Shown here: in pieces, positions 21,149-54,285 of the stretch
Position numbering within the stretch: position 1 is the first letter of the stretch
How the letters are laid out: each line of letters opens with the position of its first letter
DNA from: Oecophyllibacter saccharovorans
GTDB lineage: Bacteria; Pseudomonadota; Alphaproteobacteria; Acetobacterales; Acetobacteraceae
Reading direction: 5' to 3'
Length of the DNA: 64,000 nucleotides
NCBI RefSeq assembly: GCF_006542375.1
Contig: NZ_CP038143.1
Location: 1,488,001 to 1,552,000 of the forward strand
Notes under the pieces: generated by a model
What the model saw: only the letters and a program-made list of their open reading frames with translations
What the model was told of the DNA's origin: nothing
The model's database searches: none
Made by a program: the position numbers and the translations under genes

Positions 21149-21607
21149 TTACCCCAGAAGCTTCGCCAGGTCAGCCGGCGGGGTCGGGAGCGCTGTGCTG
21201 GTCGTGTCTGCGCCGGTGGCGATGGCTGAGAGGGCCTTGCCGTAGGGGAGGATGTCGGACGGAGGGTCCGCGAAGAGGGGCCAGCCCATCTGCGCGTAAA
21301 GATTCATCACCCGTGAAAGCTGCTGGCGCGCCTGGAAGTTGAGCGGGGTGGGGGGGATGATGGTGGGGCCGACATAGCCCTTGCCGTCAGGGCCCAGCGT
21401 TGCGTTCGTGAGGGGGCGGTTCTCCCATTCGGTGGCGGTCCAGTTGAGCTTGACCATCTTCTGGCCGGCCTGCACGTAGCGCGTGATGTCGCCCCAGTCC
21501 GTGGTGAGCCAGGTGAAGACGCGCACCGGCTTGGTCAGGTCCGCGTCACTGGCGACGACGGCATAATAGGTGGGGGTGGTGTCGGGGGTCATGAAATCTG
21601 CGGTCAT
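21149..21607 (-). CDS. Phage tail-region protein of unknown function
   Basis: This 152-residue soluble protein is the last gene of the prophage fibre module. It starts MTADFMTPDTTPTYYAVV, behind AAGGAA. Tryptophan-rich segments (FTWLTTDWGDITRYVQ) are followed by TATEWENRPLTNATLGPDGKGYVG and a helical C-terminal half. Position after a fibre gene suggests a fibre assembly/chaperone or receptor-binding accessory protein, which is inference only. It ends 48 nt before the EamA start. Confidence 0.7.
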   Translation of the reverse strand: MTADFMTPDTTPTYYAVVASDADLTKPVRVFTWLTTDWGDITRYVQAGQKMVKLNWTATEWENRPLTNATLGPDGKGYVGPTIIPPTPLNFQARQQLSRVMNLYAQMGWPLFADPPSDILPYGKALSAIATGADTTSTALPTPPADLAKLLG

Positions 21608-21634: not shown

Positions 21635-22363
21635 TCAGGCCGGGCCGATGGCGATTGCCTGCAGCACGGAGCCGTCGCTGTCCCAGTTGGCCACTGCGCC
21701 GTTGCGGTTGGCCACTACGTAGCGGGAGAGCGAGAAGGCGCTGGTAGTGGGGGCGCTGGAAGGGCCAGCGATGACGAGATTTCCGCTGCTGTCGAAAACG
21801 GTCGGGATGATGACGCAGATATCAGTCCCGGAAAAAGGTTTTGGGAAAGTAACAATCTGGCCGTTAGGACCCGTGACAGGGAAGCGCTGCACCAGGTAAG
21901 GCCCCCCCTCGGGCGTGGCGACTTCAAGCAGCGTGTTGCCCTTGGGGGTGGCAACGGCGCCGCTCCGGTCGAACAGCCATTCCGCCCAGCTGAGAGAGGG
22001 ATTGTCGGTGAGGCCGATAAAGAACCCCTTCAGGGCGCCCTGGCTGTCCTGGCGCTGGCCGATCTGCGCGCGTGTCGCGTTGTCGCCAAACATCATGCCG
22101 CCCAGCGCGCCGGTCCAGTAGAAGGTGTCGTTGGTGAACGGGCAGCCCTTGAAGTTCACCTGCACGTCTTCAAAGGTGACATTGCCCTTGAAGATGGTCG
22201 GGCCTTCAACCGTGCCGCCCGCCTGCAGCGACAGCGCGCCGCTGAGGTCTCCGGTGGCACCGGGCGCGCCCGGGGGGAGTTCGAGGGGGGCGGTGAAGCG
22301 TTTGCCGTCATTGTCAGTAGCGACGAGGGTTGCCTGGGCCGTCTGGCCGGGAGTGAGGGACAT
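21635..22363 (-). CDS. Tail fibre protein with gp53-like C-terminal domain
   Basis: This 242-residue protein starts MSLTPGQTAQATLVATDNDG behind a strong AAGGAGG. A short beta module ends in LELPPGAPGATGDLSG, a collagen-like breakpoint. Fibre-type strands (GGTVEGPTIFKGNVTFEDV) follow, then a C-terminal domain (IVTFPKPFSGTDICVIIPTVF ... AIAIG) that resembles the gp53-like receptor-binding tip of phage side fibres. Its N-terminal module is shared with the gene at 24071-24532, suggesting both attach to the same virion structure. Function as host-receptor fibre is inferred from architecture and neighbours. Confidence 0.72.
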   Translation of the reverse strand: MSLTPGQTAQATLVATDNDGKRFTAPLELPPGAPGATGDLSGALSLQAGGTVEGPTIFKGNVTFEDVQVNFKGCPFTNDTFYWTGALGGMMFGDNATRAQIGQRQDSQGALKGFFIGLTDNPSLSWAEWLFDRSGAVATPKGNTLLEVATPEGGPYLVQRFPVTGPNGQIVTFPKPFSGTDICVIIPTVFDSSGNLVIAGPSSAPTTSAFSLSRYVVANRNGAVANWDSDGSVLQAIAIGPA

Positions 22364-22374: not shown

Positions 22375-24078
22375 TCAGTAGAGAGACACGACCGCCGAGG
22401 CCACCACGGGCCCGGTCGTCGTCATGGAAAGGCCCTGACACACGTCAGGGGGGAAGAAGAGCGTTGAAGCCGAGGTCCGGCCGCCGTCAACGAACAGCTC
22501 GACCGAGCACGCATCCACCAGCAGCGTGAGCCGCTTGGTCGGGGCGTCCATGGTGGTGAGCTGTCCGGCCGGCACCGGATCGTCACGCAGAGCAGCCTGC
22601 AACGTCGCGTTCACCACGCGTGGCTTAGGCTCCATGGGCACCGACGCCGGCGTGGCCCACGGGTTGTAAGACTTGTGATCCGGGGGCGACGGGCTGCCCG
22701 GGTTGGCCGAGTAATTGGGCAGCTCCCAGCCCGAATGCGTGCGGTCGATCAGCAGCTTCTGGTCCTTGAAGTCGACCAGGAAGTCCATGTGGTAGTTACC
22801 CGCATGCGGCTGGCCCTCGGGGATGGTGCCCGTGCGGATCTGCAGCAGGACCTGGTCAGGCCACGCGCCACCCATCTGCATAAGGGTGATGTCCAGCCGG
22901 AAGCACACGCCGGTGCCAGAGGTGACGATCTCGGAGGGCCACAGATAAGGGCTGCCTGCGTCGATACCCTGCAGGCCGTTCTGGCAGACCAGGGAATAAA
23001 CCTCCCGGTCGTCAGCCAGCGGGGCGGTGTAGAGCCGCAGGAACCCGCTGGGCTCGGGCTGCAGCCAGCATTGGCGCGGCAGGCCCTGGAGGTTCTGGAA
23101 GCCCTTCCACGGCATGGGTACCGCGCAATACTGCCAGTTGCCCAGCCACGCGCCGCAGAACGTGTTGCCCTGCTCGTCCTGGCCGGTCACCGAGGAATAG
23201 CTGTCACGCCCCCAGTCCCAGGTCTGCGGGTAGAAGGCGTCAGGCGTGAAGGTCGCGCCGTCCCAGTTCCCCACCCAGTAGATGCAGCATTCATTGGTGA
23301 TGACCTCGTCATCCCATGCCCCCTGCACGCAGCCGATCAGGCACCAGCGCGTCTGATCGGTGGCACGGCCCTGGCGGTCGCGCAGCTTGATCTTCTGCAG
23401 GCTCGGGCACTCGATCAGCGGTCCGGGACCTGCCAGGGGGCTGCGCGCCGTCCAGCTCATGCCGTCGGTGGAGGTGAAGAACCCGAAGTTCTGGCCCATG
23501 CAGGCGACCATCACCAGCTGGTTGTGGTCTTCGTCCCAGAACAGGCGGAAGTCGCGGAAGTCGCGCCCGCTGTTGGTCCAGGAAGGCGGAATGTCCTGGT
23601 TGTAGATCACCGTGCCGATCAGCCGCGGGGTGATGCCGAGCTCGGGTGCGACGTAGAGCAGGCAGCTCTGATAGACCGGGTCAGGGGCTGCGATGTAGTA
23701 GAACACCGTGCCCGCGCCCCAGCCGAGATGGTCGTCCCAGTCCACGTAGAGCCCGCCGGACCACAGGGTCTGGGCCGGGGCCGTATTGCGGTCGATGCGC
23801 GTGACGGTGGGGATCATCTGTCCCAGGGAAGCGCCCACATACTCGCCCCAGCTGGTCTTGGGGAAGCCGTCGCCTGCCTGCCACTGCGCGTTGGTCAGCG
23901 CCCAGCTGCGCCACACCTTGGCTTTGCGGTCCCAGACATAGGGCTGGCCGTCATTCTGCCAGGAGTTGCTGTCGGGCGAGGGCTGGCGGGCCATGTGGCG
24001 CAGCGGGTAATAGCGCGTCATGGCCAGGCCGGCTTCCAGGCTGGAGCTTGCCGCCAGCAGATGTGCCAGGTCAGGCAT
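22375..24078 (-). CDS. GH32-family fructan hydrolase (levanase/fructosidase-like) in the prophage tail module
   Basis: This 567-residue protein has the glycoside hydrolase family 32 layout. The nucleophile motif QNDGQP at 41-46 is the equivalent of MNDPNG. F-R-D-F is at 174-177 (family FRDP), and the acid/base motif E-C-P at 223-225 lies in LIECPSLQK. Next comes the propeller block TWDWGRDSYSS...GAWLGNW. The C-terminal beta-sandwich has LLIDRTHSG and LTLLVDACSVELFVDGGR. GH32 enzymes cleave beta-fructosides such as levan, inulin or sucrose. There is no signal peptide. Its place between the holin-like/lysozyme genes and a fibre gene, on the same strand, indicates a virion-associated depolymerase acting on levan on the host surface (inference). 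AAGGAGA precedes the ATG at 24078. Confidence 0.85.
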   Translation of the reverse strand: MPDLAHLLAASSSLEAGLAMTRYYPLRHMARQPSPDSNSWQNDGQPYVWDRKAKVWRSWALTNAQWQAGDGFPKTSWGEYVGASLGQMIPTVTRIDRNTAPAQTLWSGGLYVDWDDHLGWGAGTVFYYIAAPDPVYQSCLLYVAPELGITPRLIGTVIYNQDIPPSWTNSGRDFRDFRLFWDEDHNQLVMVACMGQNFGFFTSTDGMSWTARSPLAGPGPLIECPSLQKIKLRDRQGRATDQTRWCLIGCVQGAWDDEVITNECCIYWVGNWDGATFTPDAFYPQTWDWGRDSYSSVTGQDEQGNTFCGAWLGNWQYCAVPMPWKGFQNLQGLPRQCWLQPEPSGFLRLYTAPLADDREVYSLVCQNGLQGIDAGSPYLWPSEIVTSGTGVCFRLDITLMQMGGAWPDQVLLQIRTGTIPEGQPHAGNYHMDFLVDFKDQKLLIDRTHSGWELPNYSANPGSPSPPDHKSYNPWATPASVPMEPKPRVVNATLQAALRDDPVPAGQLTTMDAPTKRLTLLVDACSVELFVDGGRTSASTLFFPPDVCQGLSMTTTGPVVASAVVSLY

Positions 24079-24532
24079 GGGAGGTCTCCTTGAGAAACTG
24101 CGCCGCTTTGAGCCGCATCAGGCGCTGGTGGGTGCGGGCCCAGAGGCGCAGCTGCTGCAGCGTGGCCAGCGCCATCATGTCGTCACGCGCGCCGCCGCGA
24201 TCGGTGAAGTCATCGAGATAGACGGCCGCTGAACGGATCCCCGTGTCAGAGGGGACGTTGAGCGTGCTCGGGAATACCTCCAGCGCCATGAGCGCGCCGT
24301 CCTGCACGCCGTCTGACGTGGTGGTCTGTCCGTCCTCGGTGAGGGCCAGCGACTGCATGGCCGTGGGGCCGCCCCCGCCGTTCTGCCCATCTTTGCCGGG
24401 CGCGCCCGGGGGGATCTCGATCTCCACCGGGAAGGCCCCGTGGCGCTGGGTCTGAAACAGCAGCTTGACGGTGGTGGCCTCGCCCGGGGCGAAGGGGCCC
24501 TGGCTGGTGACTTTCACGGTGTCAGGGTTCAT
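24071..24532 (-). CDS. Small tail-associated protein with a PPGAPG module
   Basis: This 153-residue protein begins MNPDTVKVTSQGPFAPGEAT and reaches VEIEIPPGAPGKDGQNGGGG by about residue 58. The same beta-module plus PPGAPG breakpoint occurs in the fibre at 21635-22363. The C-terminal half is helical and Arg/Leu-rich (MMALATLQQLRLWARTHQRL). The start inside the preceding gene's 3' end (24532) has GGAG about 10 nt upstream; an earlier ATG at 24565 gives an arginine-rich leader and is less likely. It overlaps the GH32 gene by 8 nt, suggesting translational coupling and a role in attaching that enzyme or fibre (inference). Confidence 0.65.
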   Translation of the reverse strand: MNPDTVKVTSQGPFAPGEATTVKLLFQTQRHGAFPVEIEIPPGAPGKDGQNGGGGPTAMQSLALTEDGQTTTSDGVQDGALMALEVFPSTLNVPSDTGIRSAAVYLDDFTDRGGARDDMMALATLQQLRLWARTHQRLMRLKAAQFLKETSHA

Positions 24533-24914
24533 GGTGCGGCGTCTCCTGCGTCTGCCCCAGGTCATACTGCCCGGTGGGCGGCAATGCGCCGCGGCCGTGA
24601 TGGGCCAGGCTGTGCATGGCGGCGACCACCGCGCCCTGGGTCAGGCTCATGGTGCGTGCGTCGACATGGCGGCGGTCCAGCCCGCAGGAGAGCAGCCCGG
24701 GCAGGGCAGCCAAAGCGAGGGTGGAGGCGAGGTTGCTGTCGATCACGTCCCAGTAATCGCCGGCCACCGCGCCGATGAGCATGGAGAGGCTGATCTGGGT
24801 GGTGGGCTGGGCCAGCCAGCCCAGAATGCGCCGCCCCCAGAGCCTTGGCGATGATGGTGATGGGGGCGCTGGTTGGGGAGCGGCTTGGGGGGTGGGGGTA
24901 GGAAGGTCTGTCAT
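24522..24914 (-). CDS. Holin-like phage membrane protein (tentative)
   Basis: This 130-residue protein has a Pro-rich N-terminus of about 25 residues and two hydrophobic stretches (ISLSMLIGAVAGDYW, LASTLALAALPGLLSCGL), then a polar His/Gln-rich end. Size, hydrophobic hairpin and position next to the lysozyme gene fit a holin, but the segments are short and no family motif is recognised. It could instead be a small structural membrane protein. Confidence 0.55.
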   Translation of the reverse strand: MTDLPTPTPQAAPQPAPPSPSSPRLWGRRILGWLAQPTTQISLSMLIGAVAGDYWDVIDSNLASTLALAALPGLLSCGLDRRHVDARTMSLTQGAVVAAMHSLAHHGRGALPPTGQYDLGQTQETPHHEP

Positions 24915-24944: not shown

Positions 24945-25454
24945 TCAGGAAATGTTACTGTTCATGAAAAGCGCTTTCTCCGCCGCCCTGCGTCTGACCA
25001 GGCCGGGCAGTATGGTTTCAGCGTCCTTGTCGGGGCTGCGGGCATGGACCCAGCGGCCGAACTCGCGGCTTGCGCGGTCGAAATCGTTTTCCAGCACCGT
25101 CGCCCAGAGATGGGAGCGCAACAATGCAGCCAGCCCCAGATTGTAGGCGAAGTCCGCCAGCGCTGCGGTTTGGGAGGGCGCCAGATCGGGCTTGCGCCTG
25201 AGGATCTCGCCTGCCAGCGCGTGCAGGCGTCCTTCCATCCAGGCCTCGGCCTGCCCCTGGCTCACCGGGGGCGTGCGGGAGGTGACCGGATGGCCGCTGC
25301 CGTCACGCGTGGCGCCGTAGCCGATGCTCCATATGCCGGCAGGGCAGGCATAGGGGCGGGCGCTGAACCCCTCGAAGCTGCGTGCCAGTCGGGCCGCCAG
25401 GGCGCTGGCCTGTTCCTGACCCGGGGCCCCGGGAAGCGGTGGGGGCGTGCTCAC
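24945..25454 (-). CDS. Phage lysozyme (GH24 endolysin)
   Basis: This 169-residue muramidase hydrolyses peptidoglycan at lysis. After a Pro-rich leader of about 12 residues, the catalytic Glu28 sits in RSFEGFSARPYACPAGIWSIG, continuing YGAT. In many P21-type lysozymes the equivalent segment reads Y-x-C-P-A-G rather than the T4 Y-x-D-x-x-G. QTAALADFAYNLG is the typical later helix. No N-terminal signal-arrest segment is seen, so export probably needs a holin. It overlaps the XhlA-like gene by ATGA, forming a lysis cassette. Confidence 0.9.
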   Translation of the reverse strand: MSTPPPLPGAPGQEQASALAARLARSFEGFSARPYACPAGIWSIGYGATRDGSGHPVTSRTPPVSQGQAEAWMEGRLHALAGEILRRKPDLAPSQTAALADFAYNLGLAALLRSHLWATVLENDFDRASREFGRWVHARSPDKDAETILPGLVRRRAAEKALFMNSNIS

Positions 25455-25723
25455 AGGAGGTGCCTGCTGGTCAGCCAGTGGATGAGGATCTGCGCGAAGC
25501 CCGAGCCGAAGGCCGAGGCCCCCCAGATGATCGGCGCATTGACCATGATGGCCCGCCGCCAGCCCGTTTCGGTATGGCGGATGCGGTCCTCATGGTTGGC
25601 AAGCACCGTCTCCTGCTGGGCGAAACGCTGGTCGGTCTGGGCGAAGCGGTCCTCATGCTGGGCGAACCGGCTGTCCATGCGCCGCGCCAGGTCCTGGAAC
25701 TCCACACTGCGCACATAGGTCAC
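25451..25723 (-). CDS. XhlA-like coiled-coil/one-TM lysis-associated protein
   Basis: This 90-residue protein has an N-terminal heptad region with repeated H-E-D-R-F-A-Q units (residues 8-45, a coiled coil) and one C-terminal transmembrane segment (IIWGASAFGSGFAQILIHWL). This layout resembles haemolysin XhlA and related phage proteins that help holins or anchor lysis complexes. It overlaps both the lysozyme gene and the upstream fibre gene, so the three are translationally coupled. The exact role is inferred. Confidence 0.65.
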   Translation of the reverse strand: MTYVRSVEFQDLARRMDSRFAQHEDRFAQTDQRFAQQETVLANHEDRIRHTETGWRRAIMVNAPIIWGASAFGSGFAQILIHWLTSRHLL

Positions 25724-27285
25724 TGGACCACCTCCACCTTATAGCTGTCGCCGTCTTTGACGACGGTGTGAGGCGTGAGGTAGCGGGGCGGGGCATCCCA
25801 GTCGGCCTGGGTCATGGTGGCCAGCGGCAGCCACGTCAGGGCCGCGTCATCGATGGGGAAGGCACTCCACCCGATGACCTTCACCGGCGTGCTGCCCACG
25901 GTCGTGCCAGCCGGCACGGCAGCCCAGAAATGCACATCCGCGGCCGCCGCCTGCAGCTTGGTGCTGGGAGTAGCCTGCTTGCCATCGATGCGGGCGACGA
26001 AAGTAACGGGAGTGGTTCCCGTGCTGACGGTGTGCGCCTTATGATCCAGCAGCGTGACGCTCACGTCGGTGCTGGTCTCGGTCGGTCCCACCTCGCCGCG
26101 CATGATGACGTTGACCTGCCCGGGCGTGGTGCCAGGCTGTCCGTCCATGACCGCAATCGGGGTCACAGAAGGGTCCAACGCCTGCGGATAGGTGAGCGTG
26201 CAGCCATCGGCGCAGGTAGCCTGGAAGGCTTCCTCGTAGTTGTAAGAAGGGTTGGAGACGCGGATGACGCCCGTACTGTCGGCCTCGGTGAGGAAGCGCT
26301 TGCCCGCGTTGTCTGTGACCGTGCCATCCATGTGGAAGATGGTGAGGGCATACCCACTGGAATCGCGGACGATGACCTGGGCGGTGTTTTTCCTGTCCTT
26401 GCCCACAGACCAGCGAAAGTCCGCAGCCTGCGCCGGGTTGCTAGGGTTCTGTGCTACGAAAAGGGGGGCAGTCATCGCGTTCGTGGCGGTCACTACTGCC
26501 GCATTGACTATATTGAGCGTCGTGTTTCCTTGCGCTGTGAGATCTCCCGTGATCTTACCGCCCGTCAGAGGCAGGTATTTCGACATATCCACGCTGGTGA
26601 CGTAGAGGTCGCCTGCCTTGTCCGCGAGCTTGCCGTCGACGGTCAGGTCGCCCGTGACTTCACCCCCTTTGATGGGCAGATACGTTGCGCCATCTTGCAC
26701 GGTCAGGAAGCGGTTGCCCCAGTTATCGGTGACCGTGCCATCGGGGTGGAAGAAAGTCCCGACTTCGGTGGTGCCGCTGCCAACCCGGATGATGGCCGTG
26801 TTGTCGGTGCCCAGGGTCAGGCGCTGGAGGGCGGCCCACTGAGCGGGGTTTTCGGGGTTCATGATCTCGAGCACGCCGTCAGACGTGATGGCGCCTGTTG
26901 CGCTGATCCGGGCCGCGTTTAGGTTTCCCAGCACCGTGGGGCCGTCCACCTTGAAAGCACCTGTGATCTCACCGCCGGCCAGGGGCAGAAAGCCCGTGCT
27001 GCCGCCGCCGCTGCCCAGGGTGATGTAAAGCGGGTTGGTTTTCGTGCCCACGCGCCGGTCGCCCGAGACGAGCTCGACGGGCGCGCCTGCGCCCATGTTG
27101 GGGCCCGGGTCGGTTCCGGCAGGGGGCGGGGCGGTCAGCGTGGCGATGAGGGGGGCGTTTTTCGTGCCGGCCCCATGGCCGCCGGCCACCAGGGTTACGG
27201 GCGCGCCAGTCTGCGTTTGAGCGAAGGCGGGCGCGCAGGAGAGCGCCAGCCAGGAACAGGCGCCCGCAGAAAGGAATTTGCGCAT
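25720..27285 (-). CDS. Tail-fibre-like protein with an N-terminal signal peptide
   Basis: This 521-residue protein begins MRKFLSAGACSWLALSCAPAFAQ, a textbook Sec signal peptide with an A-F-A cleavage site. Fibre-type repeats follow: FLPLAGGEITGAFKVDG, YLPIKGGEVTGDLTVDG and YLPLTGGKITGDLTAQG, and twice FHxDGTVTDNxGxRFLT. These are the LPL-x-GG-x-xTG repeats of phage side fibres. The C-terminal 180 residues are beta-rich (VTLLDHKAHTVSTGTTPVTF). A signal peptide is unusual for a virion protein, so it may instead be exported or surface-displayed by the lysogen. It is the first gene of the minus-strand fibre/lysis run. Confidence 0.75.
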   Translation of the reverse strand: MRKFLSAGACSWLALSCAPAFAQTQTGAPVTLVAGGHGAGTKNAPLIATLTAPPPAGTDPGPNMGAGAPVELVSGDRRVGTKTNPLYITLGSGGGSTGFLPLAGGEITGAFKVDGPTVLGNLNAARISATGAITSDGVLEIMNPENPAQWAALQRLTLGTDNTAIIRVGSGTTEVGTFFHPDGTVTDNWGNRFLTVQDGATYLPIKGGEVTGDLTVDGKLADKAGDLYVTSVDMSKYLPLTGGKITGDLTAQGNTTLNIVNAAVVTATNAMTAPLFVAQNPSNPAQAADFRWSVGKDRKNTAQVIVRDSSGYALTIFHMDGTVTDNAGKRFLTEADSTGVIRVSNPSYNYEEAFQATCADGCTLTYPQALDPSVTPIAVMDGQPGTTPGQVNVIMRGEVGPTETSTDVSVTLLDHKAHTVSTGTTPVTFVARIDGKQATPSTKLQAAAADVHFWAAVPAGTTVGSTPVKVIGWSAFPIDDAALTWLPLATMTQADWDAPPRYLTPHTVVKDGDSYKVEVVQ

Positions 27286-38568: not shown

Positions 38569-41298
38569 CTACTTCTTCTCAAGAAGAGCATTGAGGTCCA
38601 GCTGTTTGGGATCCAGCAGCTTGTTGTGCAGTCCCTCTTCCAGGGCGCTTTTGAGGTTTTCTGTGCGCCGTGTGGTCATGTAATCGATCCCGCGCCCAAC
38701 CCAGGGGGCCAGCGGGAAGGCGGCTTCCTTCGCTAATTTGGCGGCCCCGGCAGCCCGTTGGGTCAGCGGAGTGTTGGCAAACAGGTTTTTGGCCGTATTG
38801 ATGCCCAGGGGTGGGGCAAGATCGGTGGTTGAAAGCTGTCTGGTCACATTCGCCAGCTTGTCCAGCTTGGTGCGTGTTTCAGGGGAAACAGCCTCATCGG
38901 GGCGCAGATTGCGCGCGATGCCGTCACGGTGCAGGGCGTCGGAAAGGGCTTGCACACGTGTGTGCATCATGGCCCCTGTACCTGCCTCCAGCGGTTGCTT
39001 CTGCAGGTAACGCATTTCATCAAGCCTCTGCGCCTGCGTCATGTAGTCCTTTATTGCGTCTGGATAAGCAGGGGCGCCACGTGCGATCGCCATGTCGAGC
39101 TGGTCGCGCAGCGGGATCAGATGAGGCAGGGCTTCCTGAAGATTGCGCCTGTTGGCGTCCGTCCCGGCAGAAATGTCATGGTTCAGGGTGCGTCGTGCCG
39201 CATAGAGGTCGCGTGGCAGCGCCTCACCATCGGGCGTGCTCAAGGCGCGCTGCATGACCGGTACATACTGCCCCACCATATCGGCCACATGGGTAGGGAC
39301 GGCCTTGTCGCCGGCGATTTTCTGCGCCTGTTCGATGAGATGCAGGGCGTGTACGGGCTGCTGGCCCCTGAAGACGTTTCCATCAGAGCTGAAATGCTGC
39401 TGATCGTAGCGGTCAAGGTTGCGGCTGGCGGCGTCAGTGTGGAGCGGCGTGCCAGCGACTTCATCCTGCCAGTAGTTCTTGATCGCTGCCTGGTTGGCCG
39501 CTTCGCGGCTCTTGAAGGCATTCTCAAAGGCCGGGGTGGTGTTGCGCAGCGTGTTTTCCAGGGTCGCAAGCCCCGTGTTTCCCGTGTGCTGGGCAAGCGT
39601 GTACTGCACGCCTGGAATTTCCGCCGGCACCAGCTGGAAGGGCGCACCCTTGCCGAAGGTCCTGATGATGTCGTTCTGCAGCTGGGGGAGGTTCTTGTTG
39701 CGCATCATCGGGCTGAGGCGGGTGCTGTTCACCATCTCCTGCGGCGTGCTGGTCGGGTCGGGTGTGGGAGCCGGCGCGGTCGGCGCTTCTGGGCTTTTGC
39801 GGGTTTCCAGCCCCGCGTCCTTGGCGCTGTCGAGGGTGCGGGAAGCTTCTTTCAGCGCTTCTGTGGCCGCCTCATGCTGTGCGGCTGCCTGCGCCGCCTG
39901 CTGGGAAAGCTGGGCCTGCTCCTGCGGCGTGGCAGCGTGCGCGGCTGCATTGCGCAGCTGCGAGGCCGAAGCCGCACTGGCTTCCTGCTGGCGCAAAGCG
40001 GTTTGATAGGCGTCATGCGCCTCTTCAAGGGCCCTGTCAGTCTCGGCGATCCTTGAGGCGTGCGCCGCCTCTGTTGGCGCCCTCTTGGCCATCTCCGCCT
40101 CAGCCTGTGGGGCGGCTGGGCCCGATAACGTGTTTCCGCCCCTTCTGACGAAAGAGAGACCTTTCTTGAAGAGAGGCCTGGCCACATGGGCGGCTGCCCC
40201 CAGGGCCGCCCCTTCGCCCAGGATCTGGGCCATATTCTCGTCCCTGTCGCGTGAAGCAAGGGCGAGACTGGAGGCGGCCCCGCCGGCTGCATCTCCAGCC
40301 AGACCGCTGCTGAGGGCTGCTGCGCGCCCTGTCATGCCGAGCACACGGGCACCTGCAAGCGCGCCATCTGCAGCCACGCCCCCTACCACGCCGCCAATGG
40401 GTGCAGTGGCGGCCACGTTGCCGGCAAAGCGCCCCACCCCCGCCCAATTGCTGTCGCCATACTCCCTGTTATATTGCGCGTCAGCCCGGTCTTCGTATTT
40501 AACAGCCGCTTTCAGGGGGTTCCAGCGCGGGGGGGCATGGAGATCGCCGAACCTGTTCAGCCCAAGGACATGCAACCCCACGCCCCATGCCGGGAGCAGT
40601 GAGAGATAGGGATGGTCATGGGCAAAGTTCAGCAGGTGGTCCGCGCCGTAAAGCGGCGTGTCCACCACGTCGCGCAGGCCTTTTACGAAACCCGTACCGA
40701 GGTTTTCATACCATGTCCCCTGCTGGTATTTCGGGCGCGTGTCCTCGGGGTGCAGCACCGGATCGGCCGCCCCCAGGTCACGCATGTAAAAGTCATGCTC
40801 GTCCCTGGAGGAAGGGGTGGTCGGAGGGCTGCCCGCTTTCTCGCCGAAATCACGGGTGAAGAAGTCCTGCTCCTGTGGCGTTGACATGGGTGCCTCCTTT
40901 GCAGCGTTAGGGGGAGTGGAGAAGGCGTGGTAGGCAGCGGCCACCTTGTGGGGATAAGCGGCTGTCTCCGCATTGGCCCAGCGGCTTCTGTCAGTGCCGG
41001 CGTTATAGGCGCGCAGAGCGTCCGCCACGTTGCCGTAGCGGCGCATGTTCTCATCCAGCAGGCGGGCGGCGCCGTAGATGGCCTGCACGCTGTCTGTCGG
41101 ATCAATGCCGAGCGTGCGGGCGGTCGCAGGCATGAACTGCATGGGGCCGATCGCCCCTGCGCGCGAGCGGGCATTGGGGTCACCACCGGGGTCTTCCACA
41201 TGGCTGACAGCGCGCAGAAGAACGGGATCGACATTCCAGTATTTCCCGGCCCCCTCATAGGCGCGGTCCAGCTGCTCGGGCGAATAGTCAGTGGGCAT
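38569..41298 (-). CDS. Phage ejection protein with N-terminal lytic transglycosylase domain
   Basis: This 909-residue protein starts MPTDYSPEQLDRAYEGAGKY. Residues about 10-130 form an SLT lytic transglycosylase domain (YWNVDPVLLRAVSHVEDPGG with catalytic Glu, then SRAGAIGPMQFMPATARTLG and LRAYNAGTD). Next are a Gly/Ala-rich membrane-active middle (VGRFAGNVAATAPIGGVVGG), a long Ala/Gln/Glu coiled coil and a helical C-terminus. Virion transglycosylases of this type open the peptidoglycan during DNA injection, like T7 gp16 or P22 ejection proteins. ATG 41298 is chosen; the longer frame to 41394 overlaps the upstream gene. A decayed copy of its 3' end lies at 36246-36312. Confidence 0.8.
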   Translation of the reverse strand: MPTDYSPEQLDRAYEGAGKYWNVDPVLLRAVSHVEDPGGDPNARSRAGAIGPMQFMPATARTLGIDPTDSVQAIYGAARLLDENMRRYGNVADALRAYNAGTDRSRWANAETAAYPHKVAAAYHAFSTPPNAAKEAPMSTPQEQDFFTRDFGEKAGSPPTTPSSRDEHDFYMRDLGAADPVLHPEDTRPKYQQGTWYENLGTGFVKGLRDVVDTPLYGADHLLNFAHDHPYLSLLPAWGVGLHVLGLNRFGDLHAPPRWNPLKAAVKYEDRADAQYNREYGDSNWAGVGRFAGNVAATAPIGGVVGGVAADGALAGARVLGMTGRAAALSSGLAGDAAGGAASSLALASRDRDENMAQILGEGAALGAAAHVARPLFKKGLSFVRRGGNTLSGPAAPQAEAEMAKRAPTEAAHASRIAETDRALEEAHDAYQTALRQQEASAASASQLRNAAAHAATPQEQAQLSQQAAQAAAQHEAATEALKEASRTLDSAKDAGLETRKSPEAPTAPAPTPDPTSTPQEMVNSTRLSPMMRNKNLPQLQNDIIRTFGKGAPFQLVPAEIPGVQYTLAQHTGNTGLATLENTLRNTTPAFENAFKSREAANQAAIKNYWQDEVAGTPLHTDAASRNLDRYDQQHFSSDGNVFRGQQPVHALHLIEQAQKIAGDKAVPTHVADMVGQYVPVMQRALSTPDGEALPRDLYAARRTLNHDISAGTDANRRNLQEALPHLIPLRDQLDMAIARGAPAYPDAIKDYMTQAQRLDEMRYLQKQPLEAGTGAMMHTRVQALSDALHRDGIARNLRPDEAVSPETRTKLDKLANVTRQLSTTDLAPPLGINTAKNLFANTPLTQRAAGAAKLAKEAAFPLAPWVGRGIDYMTTRRTENLKSALEEGLHNKLLDPKQLDLNALLEKK

Positions 41299-42835
41299 CG
41301 AACATGCCTGCCTTGCCCATGGCGTTATACTTGCGGCGGAACTCGTCCAGCTGTCTGTCTTTCTCCAGCTCCTTGAGGAGGTCACGTCGTTCATCAGGCG
41401 TCATGTGGCGCACCTGAAAGGCGCGGGGGTCGAAGGTCTGGCCGAACTGCTCGTTCCAGCGCCGGTACTGTGCCGGAGGGAGGCCGCTCTTCTGCCAGGC
41501 CTGCGCCTTTGCGTGGATGGCGTCCTCATTGCCCATGAGCAGGTGCAGGAGGCGCTGATTGGTCTTCTCGGGCAGGGCCGAGTTGGGAAGTATGGGTACT
41601 GCCGAGGCCAGCTTGGCATCCGTGCCGTCGCCGAGGGCCGCCGCCTGCGCCTGCGCCACGCGGGGCGCCCATTTGTCGAACGCCTGGGCGCTGTTAACGC
41701 CTTTCATGTCTGCTGGAAGATCCCAATGATTGAGAAACTTCATGCCACGGCGATATAGTTCTGGCCATGCCCCTGAATCGAACCCATGCATATCAGCTGT
41801 CATGTTGTTCAGCATTCCCAGCCGGTCGCCATGACCGGCTGCCGCCTGCATGAGGGTGTTGGCAGCCTTGGTGCTGGCCTCAAGTTCTGCCTTGTTCGCT
41901 TCGACCATGCCTGCGGGCGGGCTGGCCGGCAGGCCGGGTGAGGGCTGGCCGTAACGCCCGTTGCCCAGCACGTCCGCAGGCACCGTGGGGCGACTGAGAT
42001 AGTTGCCCTGCCCATCCGCACGCGCCGCATCCGCACGGCTGCGGAGTGTCTTCGATCCGTCGGGATTGGTGACCTCCACAGGCGCGGTCGCCGCTTCGGG
42101 AGACAGCGTCTTGCCGATAACGGTCCTGGGGTTGAACTTTCCGTCGGTCAGGGCGCTCTGCTGGGTACCGATGACTATGGAGCCGCCGGTATCCACCTGC
42201 CTGCCCGCAGTGCCGTAGACATTCTCCTGTTGCTGCTGGGGGGTCTGCATGGCGTTGACCAGCTGTTTCACCCCGCCTGCGATGCCGTCCGGATGGCTTG
42301 CGATCTGCTGCACGTAGGGGCTGATGTCAACGCCGGGGAAGAGGGCCTGCGCGGCATGGGCCGCATGAGCGAGGTGGAGGGCGTCAGGATGCATCCCCAC
42401 GCTCGACAGGATACTGCCGACAACGTTTTTGCGCGCTTCCTGGTTGGCCAGGTCCTCGCTGCGCAGCCTGTTCTGGTTCTCGAACCCTTCCTCCGCGCCA
42501 TAAGTCGCCCTGGGGTCAGCGGCGATGGTAGCGCGTGCAAGGGCATAATCCGTAACCCCGTTTCTGCCGGTGGCCTGCTGCAGGGCCCGGCCACGCGCCA
42601 TCCTGGCCTCGTAATCGGCCTGGGCGGCCCGGGTGGCGATCTGCGTGTTCTGGCGGCTGTTCTCGTTGAGCAGCGCCTTTGTGTCATAATCGTCCTGCGC
42701 GCTCCGGTTGGCGATCTTCTGGGCCTGGATTGCATTGAGATTCTTTTCCATGCCGAAAAGATCAATGGGTTGCCCGGCAGTCGCCTGGAAGCCGCTAAGG
42801 GGGGTGGTGAGGAGATTCCCGTTAATGTCGGCCAT
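41288..42835 (-). CDS. Probable phage ejection (internal virion) protein
   Basis: This 515-residue soluble protein starts MADINGNLLTTPLSGFQATA. It is Ala/Gln/Asn-rich with long helices (NAIQAQKIANRSAQDDYDTK) and no recognisable enzyme motif. It stands where P22-like phages encode their second ejection protein, between a small Gln/Ala-rich protein and the transglycosylase protein, and overlaps the latter by 11 nt. Function is inferred from position and composition. Confidence 0.65.
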   Translation of the reverse strand: MADINGNLLTTPLSGFQATAGQPIDLFGMEKNLNAIQAQKIANRSAQDDYDTKALLNENSRQNTQIATRAAQADYEARMARGRALQQATGRNGVTDYALARATIAADPRATYGAEEGFENQNRLRSEDLANQEARKNVVGSILSSVGMHPDALHLAHAAHAAQALFPGVDISPYVQQIASHPDGIAGGVKQLVNAMQTPQQQQENVYGTAGRQVDTGGSIVIGTQQSALTDGKFNPRTVIGKTLSPEAATAPVEVTNPDGSKTLRSRADAARADGQGNYLSRPTVPADVLGNGRYGQPSPGLPASPPAGMVEANKAELEASTKAANTLMQAAAGHGDRLGMLNNMTADMHGFDSGAWPELYRRGMKFLNHWDLPADMKGVNSAQAFDKWAPRVAQAQAAALGDGTDAKLASAVPILPNSALPEKTNQRLLHLLMGNEDAIHAKAQAWQKSGLPPAQYRRWNEQFGQTFDPRAFQVRHMTPDERRDLLKELEKDRQLDEFRRKYNAMGKAGMFDAH

Positions 42836-42844
42836 GCGGAGGGA

Positions 42845-43627
42845 TCATCCTTTCTTTTGAGGCTTGGCAGGGGTAAGGGCTTCTGAAAGTCCCTGGCCGA
42901 ACGCGCCGCCGATGTTGGAGATACCCTGCTGAAGGGCATTGCCTACATTGGCCGTCAGCGCAGCCCCCGCACCTGCGCCCGCAAGCTTGGCGTTGGCGGC
43001 GTTGCCTGCCGTGTTGGTGATGTTGGCGGCCTGCGCGCCTGTGGCCTGCATGCCGGTGTCAAGCAGGGCGTTCTGGCGCGCGAATGTGTTCTGCAGGTTC
43101 TGCTGCGCCTGCTGGTTGAGCGCGTTGTAGCCCTGGGCTGTGTTGAGCGTGGTGTTGGCCTGGTTCATGTAGGTCTGGTCAGCCAGGCCGGTGGCGTATT
43201 GCTCAGCCGCCTTCTGCGCTGCGCCCGAATTGGCCAGGCCGCGCGCTGCCATACCGTTATTGGCGCTCTCAAGCCCCTGGCTCAGCGTGAACTGATAGCC
43301 CGGCGTCTGCTTGAGGTAGGCCTCGGTCATGCCGTTCTGCAGCCGGTTGAGCTGGTTGGCGGCGTCCTGGGTGTAGGTGCTGTCGGTCTGGTTGTACTGC
43401 GGCAGGTTCTGCGACATGTTCTGCAGCGCCTGCGTGCCGAAATCGGTATAGGGCTGGTAGAGGCTGCCCGCCTGGTCGCCTGCCTGCTGGATCGTCTGCG
43501 CCGCCTGGTTGCCTGCAGCCAGCTCCTGCTGACGGGCCTTTTCGATCTCCTTGATCTGCAGCTTGGTCGCAGCGATCTGCGCGGCACCCTGGGCGGCAGC
43601 CCCTGCCCCTGCGGCGATGCTTCCCAT
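42845..43627 (-). CDS. P22 gp7-like DNA-ejection protein (tentative)
   Basis: This 260-residue protein is rich in Ala, Gln, Asn and Gly: MGSIAAGAGAAAQGAAQIAA at the N-terminus, GDQAGSLYQPYTDFGTQAL, LKQTPGYQFTLSQGLESANN, and a Gly/Ala-rich hydrophobic C-terminal stretch. The QxxPGYQFxLxQG motif is common in small internal proteins of podoviruses that form the trans-envelope channel. It overlaps the next upstream gene at 43627. The specific equation with gp7 is by position. Confidence 0.65.
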   Translation of the reverse strand: MGSIAAGAGAAAQGAAQIAATKLQIKEIEKARQQELAAGNQAAQTIQQAGDQAGSLYQPYTDFGTQALQNMSQNLPQYNQTDSTYTQDAANQLNRLQNGMTEAYLKQTPGYQFTLSQGLESANNGMAARGLANSGAAQKAAEQYATGLADQTYMNQANTTLNTAQGYNALNQQAQQNLQNTFARQNALLDTGMQATGAQAANITNTAGNAANAKLAGAGAGAALTANVGNALQQGISNIGGAFGQGLSEALTPAKPQKKG

Positions 43628-43998
43628 CAGCGTGCGCCTTCATAGATGTAGACGCGCCGCGGCTTGCCATCGAGGCAGTCCAGCACAGCCGCCCCGCTGA
43701 AGCCGAAGCCCAGCCGCACGGCCAGATAAGCGGCGGCGCGGTTGGCAGGCGGGATGAAGCCCAGCAGGCGCTCAGCCGCGGGATGGTTGCGCCAGAAGGC
43801 CGCCAGCATGGCACGGAAAACCCCCAGCGCTTCCCGCCCGCGCATGAATGGTGCGGCACCGAAATGAACTTCCCAGCGTTCCCCGTCGATGGGCAGGAAC
43901 ATCGCCGCGCAATCGCGCTCACGCATGAGCAACGCATTGGGTGGCACAGGGTTGTGCAGGATGTCCTCGGCACTCAGCCGGGTTGCGGGCCGCCTCAT
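43627..43998 (-). CDS. P22 gp14-like (DUF2824/GNAT-like) phage protein
   Basis: This 123-residue protein has MRERDCAAMFLPIDGERWEV, an acetyltransferase-like helix-strand pattern (GFIPPANRAAAYLAVRLGFG) and AVLDCLDGKPRRVYIYEGAR. Phage gp14-type proteins with a GNAT-like fold occur next to ejection genes in P22-like phages and are needed for infectious virions. It overlaps the neighbours on both sides by ATGA-type junctions. Confidence 0.65.
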   Translation of the reverse strand: MRRPATRLSAEDILHNPVPPNALLMRERDCAAMFLPIDGERWEVHFGAAPFMRGREALGVFRAMLAAFWRNHPAAERLLGFIPPANRAAAYLAVRLGFGFSGAAVLDCLDGKPRRVYIYEGAR

Positions 43999-44312
43999 GA
44001 CAGGGAATACCCGTTGAGGACCAGTTGCAGCCCGGCCCCGCCGGCACTCAGCACGTCGCCCTTGTTGAGCACGAGGCCGGAGAGCTCAGGCAGAAGATCG
44101 GTGCCCATGGTGGCCACCTGGCGCGCAGGGATAAGAAAAACCGCCTGCCCGCCCGCGCGCGTCACGCTGACGCTGAGCGTGGTAATGCTGTCAGCGGAAT
44201 TGGCCGCCACGCCGGAAGTCACCACAGTGGTGCCGCCGGGGGCTGTGAAAACGGTCTGCAGATCCTGCTGCAGCGCCATGCCGGGCTGGAGGGAGAGGGG
44301 GGTCACTGCCAT
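43995..44312 (-). CDS. Small phage protein of unknown function
   Basis: This 105-residue, beta-rich, soluble protein (MAVTPLSLQPGMALQQDLQT ... GDVLSAGGAGLQLVLNGYSL) carries no recognised motif. It is coupled to the gp14-like gene by ATGA. The beta-sandwich composition and position suggest a small structural or decoration protein. The 143 bp separating it from the nuclease gene include an imperfect CCGAAAC/GTTTCGG stem. Confidence 0.6.
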   Translation of the reverse strand: MAVTPLSLQPGMALQQDLQTVFTAPGGTTVVTSGVAANSADSITTLSVSVTRAGGQAVFLIPARQVATMGTDLLPELSGLVLNKGDVLSAGGAGLQLVLNGYSLS

Positions 44313-44455
44313 CGGGAAAAGGCCTCGTCACTCAGGTATTTCCCGTCAACGCCGTCTTATACCGTGCGCCCGTGCCGTAAACCTAGAACCCCCCTTTCAC
44401 CACGCGCAACAGGGGTTTTTTATGAAACGATACCGAAACTTTCTGCCGGTTTCGG

Positions 44456-46165
44456 TCATGGTTTCGGTGGGGTGACGTCCGGCTCCTTACGCTGAGCGCC
44501 AGGAATCCCGCGCCGATCCCTGTTCTTGATCCAGGCCCCAACCTTGTCGAGAAAGGCCCACACATCGTTGTCAGCTGGATGAACATAAGCGGGATCTTCC
44601 GGGTCGCTGCCCAGTGCTTTGAAGATGTTGTACAGCCATCCCTTTTTGCTTCTGGGAACTTCCAATTTTCGTAGCCAGTGCTCGACTTCGCCATGTCTCA
44701 GAACAAACAGGCCATATTGGTCGAGATCGTCGAACAGAGCTTCGGCCCTTTTCTTCGCGTCTCCCTCGAGCAAGGCAATGCCGCCATTCGACTTGGGGTT
44801 CTGGCCGCCTGATTTAAGGCTTGACCAGATGTTTTTGCGTTCCTCGTTTATATCCTTGTGGGGCTCTGGGTAATTCGCCCCTCTCAAGAGGGGGGTAAAG
44901 TTGGTTCTGGGGTTAAGTGCGTCGATGTCAAGAATGGCGGCAACGGGTATCCCAAGTTTCCGGAACGGCCCGACGATCTTGTACACTGAATCCTTCCCGT
45001 TGGCGTTGAGGAAGAGAGTATTGGCTGCACCCCGTTTAGGGTCTTTTTCCAGAAGCCGCTCGTTGATCTCCTGGTAGAAGGCGCGATCCGCGTCCGCCTC
45101 GGTTACCAAGATACCTTCGTAAAAGAGACCGGACAACGCATTGGCAGACCGCAAAAGGGGTTCATAAATCATGGTATGCATGGCGTCGTTCGAAAGCGTG
45201 CGCGCAGTGGCAGTCTCTGGCTGAGTAGCACTGGCGGGCTGATAAGTCAGGCGGACGACATTGACCTCCGCGCCCGACTGGATCGCGCCCATCAGGAAGT
45301 GGCTGCTATGGGTTGACACAAAAACCTGCTTGCCGCTCTGGCTCGCAGCCTTGGCGACTTCGCGACCAAGCTTGTGGGCCAGCGGGGGATGCAGAAAGGC
45401 TTCCGGCTCATCGATGAGCATGACCTTCGAGTCACCTGTGTGCAGTGCCAACAGCATGCCTGTAAAGGCCTTCACGCCGTCGCCACACTCCTGGATGGGA
45501 GTAGTATTCTCCATCCATTTCAGCGTGTCGCCTTCAAGCTGGTGCTCGTTTGGTGGGGGCGTACCTCCATATCGCAAGTGGATTGACCCATTCACGGAAT
45601 CGTCCATGCCCAGATAGAGGTCGAGGGCATCGTAAAGAATTTCCCGTAGCGTCTTTCGGCCAGTGTCATCCATTAGAAGCTTGGCAAAAGTGCTTTTCGG
45701 GTCCTTCAGGTCGCCTCTTTTTTGTGCCTTGGTCAGGTCAATTCTGCCCGGTCCATCGAGTAGAAGCACATAAGGGGCTACGCAATATGGAGCGAAGACA
45801 GTTAAGTGCTCATTAGGATTTTGCTGACTTTGACGGTAATCTAAGGCACGGATTGGTGCACGGCCGCCTTCAAAATAGAGGAATTCCTGATTAGGCTCAT
45901 TCCCTTCTCCTGAATTGCGTTTGTTATCCCTCAAGGCTTCAAGGTTCTTGTCGATTTCTTCATCTGAGCGTTTGCGGAATTTGAGCCCGTCAAGAATCGT
46001 GCCAGACGACTGCCCTGTGCGGCAGAAGTTGGCAATTTCGCGCAGAAGCAAACTCTTCCCAGAGTTGTTGGGTCCAACAAAGATGGTAACGGCAGGGGCA
46101 TCCAACACCAGTGGTTCTGAGCCGGGCCCAGCGCCAAAGCGCAACTTTACTTCCTCGATGAGCAT
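44456..46165 (-). CDS. OLD-family ATP-dependent nuclease (AAA ATPase plus TOPRIM)
   Basis: This 569-residue protein is a class 1-like OLD protein. Walker A is IFVGPNNSGKSLLLREIANF (loop at 31-38). The long insert is followed by an ABC-type Walker B (KVMLIDEPEAFLHPP) and a His-switch (VFVSTHSSHFLMGA). From about residue 345 comes a TOPRIM domain with the metal-binding glutamate in GILVTEADADRAFYQEI and the acidic DIDALN. Family members cut DNA and often act in phage defence or exclusion (P2 Old, GajA). It is embedded between P22-type tail and ejection genes, with no GajB-like helicase beside it. Superinfection exclusion by the prophage is a reasonable inference. Confidence 0.85.
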   Translation of the reverse strand: MLIEEVKLRFGAGPGSEPLVLDAPAVTIFVGPNNSGKSLLLREIANFCRTGQSSGTILDGLKFRKRSDEEIDKNLEALRDNKRNSGEGNEPNQEFLYFEGGRAPIRALDYRQSQQNPNEHLTVFAPYCVAPYVLLLDGPGRIDLTKAQKRGDLKDPKSTFAKLLMDDTGRKTLREILYDALDLYLGMDDSVNGSIHLRYGGTPPPNEHQLEGDTLKWMENTTPIQECGDGVKAFTGMLLALHTGDSKVMLIDEPEAFLHPPLAHKLGREVAKAASQSGKQVFVSTHSSHFLMGAIQSGAEVNVVRLTYQPASATQPETATARTLSNDAMHTMIYEPLLRSANALSGLFYEGILVTEADADRAFYQEINERLLEKDPKRGAANTLFLNANGKDSVYKIVGPFRKLGIPVAAILDIDALNPRTNFTPLLRGANYPEPHKDINEERKNIWSSLKSGGQNPKSNGGIALLEGDAKKRAEALFDDLDQYGLFVLRHGEVEHWLRKLEVPRSKKGWLYNIFKALGSDPEDPAYVHPADNDVWAFLDKVGAWIKNRDRRGIPGAQRKEPDVTPPKP

Positions 46166-46228
46166 CGAAATCTCCTTCCAAGCCTGACTCTCAGTCAGCG
46201 GAAGTCGATCGCGCGTGTCAACAGCGTC

Positions 46229-46702
46229 TCACCCCGACCGCTCCGCCCTCGGCACCACCCGCCGCTCCAGCGCCCCCACTACCTCGGCATCCGCGCAGTG
46301 TCGTTCCAATTCCCGCAGCGTGGTGCGCAGGGCCGTCACTTCCAGCAGCGCCGCTTCGGCCGCGGTTCGGGCGGCCTGGGCTTCGGCCAGGGCGGCGACA
46401 GCCTCACGCCGCAACGCCCACGCCGCGCTGAGGGCCTGCGTGGCCGTGTTCATTGCCTGGGTGGCGTCGCGGCCGGCCTGGTTTGCCAGCACGTTGGCCG
46501 TGTCAGCGCGCAGGGTGGCGTTGTCCGCCTCCTGCTGCACCCACGCGCCTGCCACGCCGGGGGCGTAGCCCGTGCGTTCCCACAGCCGGTGCAGGAACGC
46601 CTGGGCCTGCTGGGTCAGGCTGCCGTCCGGCCGGCAGAACACGCTGCCGATAAACGGCGCGTTGAGGTCAGGCGGTCTCTGACTGGGACGTGCCCCGCTC
46701 AT
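46229..46702 (-). CDS. Phage tail-region coiled-coil protein
   Basis: This 157-residue protein starts with a short globular segment (DLNAPFIGSVFCRPDGSLTQ, continuing QAQAFLHRLWERTGY), often found at the N-terminus of small phage head/tail accessory proteins. A long Ala-rich coiled coil follows (ATQALSAAWALRREAVAALA). It overlaps the gp10-like gene by ATGA, so it probably belongs to the same tail machine; a needle- or stopper-like role is speculative. Confidence 0.65.
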   Translation of the reverse strand: MSGARPSQRPPDLNAPFIGSVFCRPDGSLTQQAQAFLHRLWERTGYAPGVAGAWVQQEADNATLRADTANVLANQAGRDATQAMNTATQALSAAWALRREAVAALAEAQAARTAAEAALLEVTALRTTLRELERHCADAEVVGALERRVVPRAERSG

Positions 46703-48195
46703 GTCGCCACCGGGTCAAGAGCCAGGAACACGCCCATCAGCGCGGGCGTGCCGGGGTTGGCGGCCGTGCTCTCCCAGGTGAGGCGGTAGACGCGGTCGCG
46801 TGCAAAGCCCAGCCGCCACAGGCTCGGCCACGTGTTGCCCCCAGCCCCCAGCGCCAAACCCACAGCCGGGCCGAACGTCGCCCCGCGGTCGTCGGACCAG
46901 TCCACGGCCACCGAGCCCCCGCCCACCTGCTGCACGTCAAGCATGAGCTGGCGGTGAATGCCGCGCTGGCCCGAGGTCAGCAGATGCGGGAATGCCCGCT
47001 GGCGTTTGATCGGTGCGCCCGCGTCATCAGGGTGATCGGGCGAGACGGTGTAGAGCACAGCCGTCTCCCGGTCGCCCGCAAATACGTGCCCGTAAGCCGC
47101 CCCCCAGCAGGCGGAGCGGATCTGCTCTTCTGCGCCCCCGCTATCCAGCGCGCAGCGCTCATGCCACAGCTGGGTGGAGACGTCATAAACCCAGCTTGAC
47201 GAAGCGCCGGGCACGCTCAGCACGTAGAACACATGCCCGCCCTCCTGGTAAGCCGCGCCAAGTGCGGCCCCCAGCATCTCATCGCCCAACTGCTGCAATG
47301 CATGCTCGATGGGCCAGGTGCTCACGGGCTGGGCAGATGTCTGCTGCCCCAGGAACACCCGCACCAACCCGGAGCGCTCGCGCCCCAGCCACATGATGCC
47401 GCCATTGGCCAGCCCCTGGCACGAGGGCAGGCGCGCGATCGCGTAAGGGCTGACGCACCCTGCCTCCACCGTCACGCCGGAGACGCGCTGGAAGGGGAAG
47501 TCAGACGCGCCGCTGTCATACCAGAACTCCACCTGGTGCCGCCCAAAGAGCCACACATACTGCCCCACCACCTCAAGCCCGATGAGGGTGCCCATCGCCG
47601 TGGTGTCGCTGGCGACATAAAGCGCGTCAAACGCGTCCTCGCCCCCGTAGTTGGAGGGCGACACATACCAGTTGGTGGTGTCAGGGTTCACGAACAGGAA
47701 GAACGTATCGAGCATGGCCACGGTGGGCGAGCCGTAGAAGCCGGGGTCCTGGATGGGAATGAGGGTGCTGTAATCGCCCGCTCCAGCCTTGCCCGGCAGC
47801 CCGATCACCCAACCGCCCGCGGCAACCGACCCGTTGGGGGCCTGGCCGTCCACGATCACCAGCGCCAGCCCGTTGTCGGACATGCGCACGGGCGTGGTGC
47901 CGGGGTCGATCTGCCCCAGCGCTTTCGTGGTCCCGTCCGGCCGCACCAGCCACACGGTAGCGCGGTCCACGGCGATCAGGTCGCCCTGGGTGGTCTGGTA
48001 AAGCCCGCGCACGGGGCCTGCGCCGAGTGTCGCAAACACAGCCAGGCCCGAGGTGGGGTAATGCGCCACGGCCACCGGCTCGCCCTCCTGGGCGGGCACG
48101 GGCTCGGGGTAGAGGTTGAGGCACCGCTGGGCGGCGACCGAAGCCGCGCGCGCCTGGTAGGAGCCGCCGGTGAGGTTGATGCGCTGCAGGGCCAT
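46699..48195 (-). CDS. P22 gp10-like packaged-DNA stabilisation / tail accessory protein
   Basis: This 498-residue protein starts MALQRINLTGGSYQARAASV and continues AAQRCLNLYPEP, the characteristic beginning of gp10-type hub proteins (G-x-Y-x-x-x-S-x-x-A-A-Q-R-x-x-N-L-Y-P-E). It continues as a beta-propeller-like repeat series (VVGQYVWLFGRHQVEFWYDS, GGIMWLGRERSGLVRVF). In P22, gp10 forms the hexameric hub beneath gp4 and retains the DNA. ATG 48195 has GAGGA 7 nt upstream; the longer frame to 48261 overlaps the gp4-like gene. Confidence 0.82.
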   Translation of the reverse strand: MALQRINLTGGSYQARAASVAAQRCLNLYPEPVPAQEGEPVAVAHYPTSGLAVFATLGAGPVRGLYQTTQGDLIAVDRATVWLVRPDGTTKALGQIDPGTTPVRMSDNGLALVIVDGQAPNGSVAAGGWVIGLPGKAGAGDYSTLIPIQDPGFYGSPTVAMLDTFFLFVNPDTTNWYVSPSNYGGEDAFDALYVASDTTAMGTLIGLEVVGQYVWLFGRHQVEFWYDSGASDFPFQRVSGVTVEAGCVSPYAIARLPSCQGLANGGIMWLGRERSGLVRVFLGQQTSAQPVSTWPIEHALQQLGDEMLGAALGAAYQEGGHVFYVLSVPGASSSWVYDVSTQLWHERCALDSGGAEEQIRSACWGAAYGHVFAGDRETAVLYTVSPDHPDDAGAPIKRQRAFPHLLTSGQRGIHRQLMLDVQQVGGGSVAVDWSDDRGATFGPAVGLALGAGGNTWPSLWRLGFARDRVYRLTWESTAANPGTPALMGVFLALDPVAT

Positions 48196-48214
48196 GGCGG
48201 GGTCCTCGACCTCC

Positions 48215-49412: not shown

Positions 49413-49417
49413 GGCCC

Positions 49418-50707: not shown

Positions 50708-50940
50708 CTGGATTTGTTCTCTGAAAAGGCGTGTCCCACCTGCGCCGCCCCTCAGGTCAGTAAGGGCGTGTTGAAGCCAGGCGTGTGCCGTTTTACCGAG
50801 TGCGGCTCTCAGGCCGGAGGTGTCGTCCCCGTGGACGCCGGGTTTAAGAGACGCCGGAAGTCTGCCGGGATGCGCTCCCGTGGGCGGCAAGCCACTCTAG
50901 GCAGGGCTTTTCACCGTCCGCAATGCCCCATATGTGCCAG

Positions 50941-50975: not shown

Positions 50976-51004
50976 TTGGTCGTTGTGTTTCAGCAAGTTG
51001 TGTT

Positions 51005-54225: not shown

Positions 54226-54285
54226 ACCCGCCCCTTAACCCGCCGTTTTCACCACCTCCAAACTGAAAAACACGCCCGTTGCGCA

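Follow-up and report, generated by a model that had tools for sequence, protein, structure and literature searches.

The GH32 enzyme encoded at 22375-24078 on the reverse strand of the window probably serves a split tailspike as its detachable catalytic head. The window is the whole stretch of DNA that was analysed (64,000 nt; NZ_CP038143.1, 1,488,001-1,552,000 of the forward strand), and positions are those of the window unless a locus name precedes them. The pairing of the GH32 gene with that of a candidate anchor, the covalent fusion of related GH32 to a baseplate-wedge domain and the separate recombination of anchor heads and anchor ends make this role the most likely explanation of the enzyme. 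The first-pass annotation had proposed a virion-borne levanase; comparative genomics argues for the virion-borne role, through the anchor-GH32-fibre cassette and the wedge fusions found in relatives.

The GH32 enzyme and its prophage

The gene encodes a genuine, apparently intact GH32. Its open reading frame starts with an ATG preceded by a good Shine-Dalgarno sequence (AAGGAG) and has no internal stop. The product consists of an N-terminal peptide of about 18 aa, a beta-propeller and a C-terminal beta-sandwich.

22375..24078, reverse strand: GH32 beta-fructosidase of 567 aa, from Pfam, PHROG and PDB matches and the predicted fold
24025..24078, reverse strand: N-terminal peptide of the GH32, residues 1-18, proposed docking peptide (pLDDT below 50; helix at residues 2-14, low confidence)
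23950..23952, reverse strand: codon of D43, catalytic nucleophile, motif W-Q-N-D-G-Q (invariant; same column as D54 of LftA)
23551..23553, reverse strand: codon of D176, position of the transition-state stabiliser, R-D-F motif (R175-D176 invariant)
23410..23412, reverse strand: codon of E223, acid/base, E-C-P motif (invariant)

Both Pfam domains, Glyco_hydro_32N (PF00251; 4.8e-22, residues 74-340) and Glyco_hydro_32C (PF08244; 4.5e-11, residues 428-556), match above their curated cut-offs. The protein also matches PHROG 21583 "levanase" (3.9e-17) and its closest PDB relatives are the endolevanase LevB1 and a levan fructotransferase. Together with the fold, these matches agree with the GH32 identity assigned at first pass. 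The AlphaFold2 model built from a 48-sequence alignment (pLDDT 83, pTM 0.86) displays a five-bladed beta-propeller followed by a C-terminal beta-sandwich. It superposes on the levan fructotransferase LftA (4ffh; Z 41.6, rmsd 2.4, 455 residues), on LevB1 (9h8i; Z 36.2) and also on other GH32 structures.

The motifs N42-D43-G44, R175-D176 and E223-C224-P225 are present as had been reported, and D43, R175, D176 and E223 are invariant in the 48-sequence alignment. D43 aligns with the nucleophile of LftA, whose column holds N in the D54N mutant entries. Thus, the nucleophile Asp, the Asp of RD and the Glu of EC typical of GH32 are all found, with varying flanks (NDGQ, RDF). The NDGQ variant had been put forward as a departure from NDPNG; it is indeed present, but it is less unusual than proposed, because the closest relatives share it and the levan-active enzymes carry NDPQ or CDPQ, not NDPNG. 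As had also been claimed, no signal peptide is evident, judging by composition: a basic n-region is absent and the hydrophobic run is weak. A cellular GH32 of Acetobacteraceae contrasts with the enzyme in this respect.

The host genome (1.94 Mb) belongs to the Acetobacteraceae, a family that also includes Bombella and Neokomagataea, and the enzyme is its only GH32. The gene lies beyond the lysozyme gene, at the left edge of a prophage.

38569..56312, reverse strand: P22-like virion genes (lytic ejection protein, DNA ejection, head closure Hc3, head-tail adaptor, major head, portal, large terminase)
25720..27285, reverse strand: 521-aa protein at a fibre position, with an unusual signal-peptide-like N-terminus (homologue at L037:12011-12688)
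24945..25454, reverse strand: phage endolysin (lysozyme; PF00959 7.3e-26, PHROG endolysin 1.3e-35)
24522..24914, reverse strand: small protein at the holin position, assigned by position only
20127-21101: permease-like gene, recognised by eye, adjoining the GH32 cassette where the prophage ends on the left

The portal, major head protein, Hc3, DNA ejection and lytic ejection/tail proteins bear out the P22-like type attributed to the prophage, and the gene context places the GH32 among the late tail and lysis genes, as stated at first pass. Searches of Pfam and PHROG gave no significant family match for the product at the holin position, and no family match was found for the 521-aa protein. The latter starts like a secreted protein (MRKFLSAGACSWLALSCAPAFAQ), as does its homologue at L037:12011-12688, which is odd for a virion protein. 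Searches for tyrosine or serine integrases within the window and for long direct repeats shared by the prophage's left edge and the right part found none, so the prophage may be defective.

Between the genes of the lytic ejection protein and of the fibre-position protein, the prophage carries on the forward strand (27510-37164) an array of low GC (0.48-0.57) encoding 13 paralogous small membrane-type proteins of about 96-161 aa. They are mostly 33-69% identical and share the motif YACVKRKGF...WP.LI.LEL...IEY; superinfection exclusion would be a guess at their role. A gene for a PemK/MazF-like toxin (54471-54878, reverse strand; PF02452 3.3e-11) lies between those of the portal and the large terminase.

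The anchor-GH32-fibre cassette and its relatives

The GH32 gene is the second of four genes that recur together in relatives. The other three are as follows.

24071..24532, reverse strand: anchor/adaptor protein (the open reading frame opens at 24565, the ATG at 24532 being likelier); its stop overlaps the GH32 start by 8 bp
21635..22363, reverse strand: tail fibre protein with an N-terminal PPGxPG domain and a Gp53-like C-terminal domain, from the family alignment
21149..21607, reverse strand: 152-aa product of the last cassette gene, assembly-chaperone-like by size and position only

The GH32 gene had been described as overlapping its neighbours. This is true of the upstream side only, since the fibre gene starts at the ATG at 22363, 11 bp past the GH32 stop; the ORF 21635-22441 with its GTG start is probably over-extended. 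Gp53-like_C is detected in five of the nine members of the fibre family and PHROG tail fiber in four, the window member having no match to the latter.

Relatives were sought among 299 genomes of the family, viral contigs and 50,697 phage records. They were not found by single-sequence searches of the viral and genome contigs and were retrieved with alignment queries. Among the 299 genomes, ordinary cellular GH32 align only over residues ~172-354, and a separate set aligns over most of the protein. Inspection of the 20-kb surroundings and of the small neighbour proteins of the relatives reveals a recurrent order (anchor stub, GH32, fibre, protein of ~145 aa) at eight loci: the window, L034, L035, L036 (Bombella intestini), L037 (Neokomagataea anthophila), L038 (B. 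favorum), L040 and the viral contig L049. The anchor stop overlaps the GH32 start by 1-8 bp at all eight, and fibre homologues are present at most of them. Homologues of the last gene (26-35% identity) lie beside most relatives, none being recognised in L034 and L049, and the window product has no family match in Pfam or PHROG. The phages involved are of different types: several cassettes lie beside baseplate J-type genes, that of the window belongs to a P22-like prophage, and the head and tail genes of L038 (PHROG 684, 212, 394) differ from those of the other loci. In L037, the GH32 (8609-10233, reverse strand) is split into two frames of 415 and 143 aa, by decay or by an assembly error.

Each anchor appears to be made of two parts. 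In the window, the N-terminal domain is common with the fibre protein (match to the fibre-family N-domain, 2.3e-4) and the C-terminal part is the proposed docking element. At six loci, the anchor ends with a homologous element of about 63 aa that would serve for docking; it occurs in five of the 299 family genomes, each time directly upstream of a GH32. The anchors of L036, L040 and L049 have heads 86-97% identical and docking ends only 30-41% identical. Conversely, L038 and L040 combine unrelated heads with docking ends 84% identical and GH32 72% identical, which argues that docking end and enzyme move together; sequence comparison thus indicates that heads and docking ends recombine separately. 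The anchor heads of L035 and L036 match PHROG tail-fibre N-termini. The anchors of the window and of L034, which occupy the same place, are homologues (36% over 83 aa, 5.9e-6), and the kinship of the window anchor with the six-locus docking family is no more than suggestive (E 0.9). The association of the docking element with GH32 in five of five genomes therefore touches the window anchor indirectly. An anchor match in genome G030 corresponds to an AsmA-like cellular protein and was taken as a chance match.

Upstream of its cassette, L034 also encodes a 691-aa tailspike-like protein (6896-8971, forward strand) whose C-terminal domain is common with the cassette fibre protein. This sharing suggests that different enzymes are fitted with the same fibre end.

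At four loci (L042, L044 and L045, from two Neokomagataea-group genomes, and the viral contig L048), a baseplate-wedge domain is covalently fused to the GH32. The wedge domain of L042 matches PHROG 203 (1.3e-24) and Mu Gp48 (1.5e-6, below Pfam's cut-off). From these sequences, the fusions show that a related GH32 can be a tail part. Structure prediction of a wedge-GH32 fusion without an alignment gave no usable model (pLDDT 33).

The ten stand-alone phage-type GH32 form one clade (support 100/100), from which the fusions are distinct as a neighbouring clade. Both are enclosed in a 16-member group (100/98) with three further GH32: a cellular one from Gluconobacter, a cellular one from the Neokomagataea group and an acidobacterial one. 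Bacillus phage levP, Bacillus levanases, LftA-like enzymes and the invertases of Acetobacteraceae all fall outside this group; the invertase type was rejected for the window enzyme as a separate clade. The annotated matches in the 50,697 phage records are mainly Bacillus phage enzymes, and the fusion query adds weak matches in E. coli phages. The clear matches in BFVD, one unnamed protein of 911 aa and GH32 proteins of giant viruses, are uninformative on tails.

Other loci were excluded from the count of tail loci. L039 and L041 belong to the stand-alone clade and lack the cassette, and L039 has gtrB and a gene for a phage tail lysozyme nearby. L043, a few kb from a GH68, and L105, on its context, were treated as cellular. 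L148, from a genome of the genus Bombella, was likewise excluded; it seems to be what is left of a prophage, reduced to an open GH32 of the NDGQ type (9938-11892, forward strand) and a truncated fibre end, with an autotransporter-like gene on one side and fumarase-like and malic-enzyme-like genes on the other. Two "phage" records from human faeces (L130, L131), which are unannotated and hold several GH32-like ORFs, look like bacterial glycan loci and were set aside.

Proposed role, substrate and competing explanations

The enzyme lies in a tail-fibre/baseplate locus with a linked virion anchor, as expected of a tailspike-like protein from its gene context and relatives. It is a propeller preceded by only ~20-30 residues, which does not correspond to a classical trimeric tailspike, with its right-handed beta-helix and covalent N-terminal domain for virion binding. 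The short anchor and the enzyme with a conserved N-terminal peptide, whose pattern is also found in the phage-type relatives, resemble in layout the anchor-branch systems, for which physical docking and a T4 gp10-like domain would also be expected. The GH32, a beta-fructan hydrolase of the levan-active kind, would be translated together with the upstream anchor (24071-24532). The N-terminal domain of the anchor would attach it to the virion, and its C-terminal element would grip the N-terminal peptide of the enzyme. On meeting a new cell, the enzyme would cut beta-fructan, either the levan of levansucrase-positive neighbours or hosts or another surface beta-fructoside, and so let the tail reach the outer membrane. 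We infer in this way that the window enzyme docks on its anchor, forms part of the virion, is active on such a substrate and takes part in adsorption.

As a first guess, the substrate could be a beta-2,6-fructan, because the nearest characterised relatives act on levan. It had been proposed that the enzyme strips the levan capsule of its host. This proposal is not supported for the host of the window and fits only some carriers, because no GH68 levansucrase was found in the genome of the window and GH68 is absent from most other carriers (absent from G141, G193, G234, G124, G029 and G139; present in G078 and G154). It is therefore necessary to consider as target the levan made by neighbours or some other beta-fructoside. 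Going further, these enzymes could form an exchangeable class, in which a docking element and its enzyme move as a unit among prophages that differ in tail type and reside in the acetic acid bacteria of bees and flowers, clip onto any anchor present on the tail and are aimed not at the host capsule but at the fructan of the sugary habitat, which neighbours produce in large part. This is a tentative extension, somewhat less likely than not to hold.

The proximity of the gene to that of the endolysin in the late operon and the lack of an evident signal peptide would also suit a soluble levanase freed at lysis, which would thin the fructan matrix for progeny spread and not be part of the virion. 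LevP and PghP of phage phiNIT1 are a precedent for this, but levP has sigma-factor and partition genes for neighbours and is not in a tail module, and LevP belongs to another clade. Since the dedicated anchor pairing, the recombination of heads and docking ends and the wedge fusions point to a virion part, soluble release seems rather unlikely. Lysogenic conversion, by which the prophage would supply its host with a beta-fructosidase, appears improbable: such a moron would fit the only GH32 of the genome, located at a prophage edge, but the enzyme has no evident signal peptide for the use of extracellular fructan, its gene is inside a frame-overlapping late tail cassette and not an autonomous transcription unit, and several other carriers also own a cellular GH32.

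The NDGQ and RDF substitutions flank catalytic aspartates, and E replaces D in the alignment at one distant relative, L041, as could be the case if the GH32 were weak or inactive and served purely as a fructan-binding receptor domain. Against this, the three catalytic residues are retained by the window enzyme as well as by the other aligned stand-alone cassette and fusion copies, and sampled pairs of phage GH32 are under purifying selection (w 0.08-0.14), which leaves this explanation highly improbable. A catalytic head of a split tailspike thus remains the preferred reading of the window enzyme.

Comparison with known systems

LevP (phiNIT1 and relatives, PHROG 21583) is, like the window enzyme, a phage-encoded GH32 akin in sequence to levan-active enzymes. 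The two share only ~22-27% identity and belong to separate clades, and the window enzyme and its relatives lie in anchor-GH32-fibre cassettes, whereas levP was outside the tail module in the two Bacillus phages inspected. According to PMC6966330, LevP is no tailspike and its companion PghP is released at burst. Bacillus phage levanases, which had been mentioned at first pass, are therefore poor precedents for a virion role. LftA and LevB1 share the fold and the nucleophile column with the window enzyme but are cellular enzymes (~25% identity) without a phage docking peptide, and carry NDPQ or CDPQ and RDP where it has NDGQ and RDF.

Phage depolymerases are mostly trimeric beta-helices. If the split-tailspike reading is right, a tail-mounted beta-propeller GH32 on a swappable anchor would add an enzyme class to the receptor-binding machinery, and would suggest that fructan shapes how phages reach the bacteria of bees, nectar and fermentations. 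Bombella, Neokomagataea and related genera harbour the type repeatedly in their prophages. It offers a ready-made anchor/enzyme pair for testing and, as most carriers lack a levansucrase, a concrete question, i.e., what the GH32 cuts. By word search, the papers PMC9147383 and PMC8566455 on phages or prophages of acetic acid bacteria do not mention a phage GH32, and among the open-access articles listed for GH32 and phage tails no title or abstract reports one.

A comparable organization is that of the Klebsiella KP34virus group A, a split system in which a truncated first RBP is the anchor of a depolymerase with an N-terminal peptide (PMC6872550). As proposed for the window, a short enzyme-free anchor goes with a depolymerase whose N-terminal peptide is conserved; however, other genes separate the two in KP34, whereas those of the window are adjacent and have overlapping reading frames. 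The known heads of anchor-branch systems are mostly trimeric beta-helices, whereas the proposed head in the window is a GH32 beta-propeller. The P22 tailspike, whose beta-helix trimer is covalently joined to its head-binding domain, is a surface-glycan depolymerase of a P22-like virion, as the window enzyme is a candidate to be. The latter would differ from it as a propeller enzyme borne by a separate anchor.
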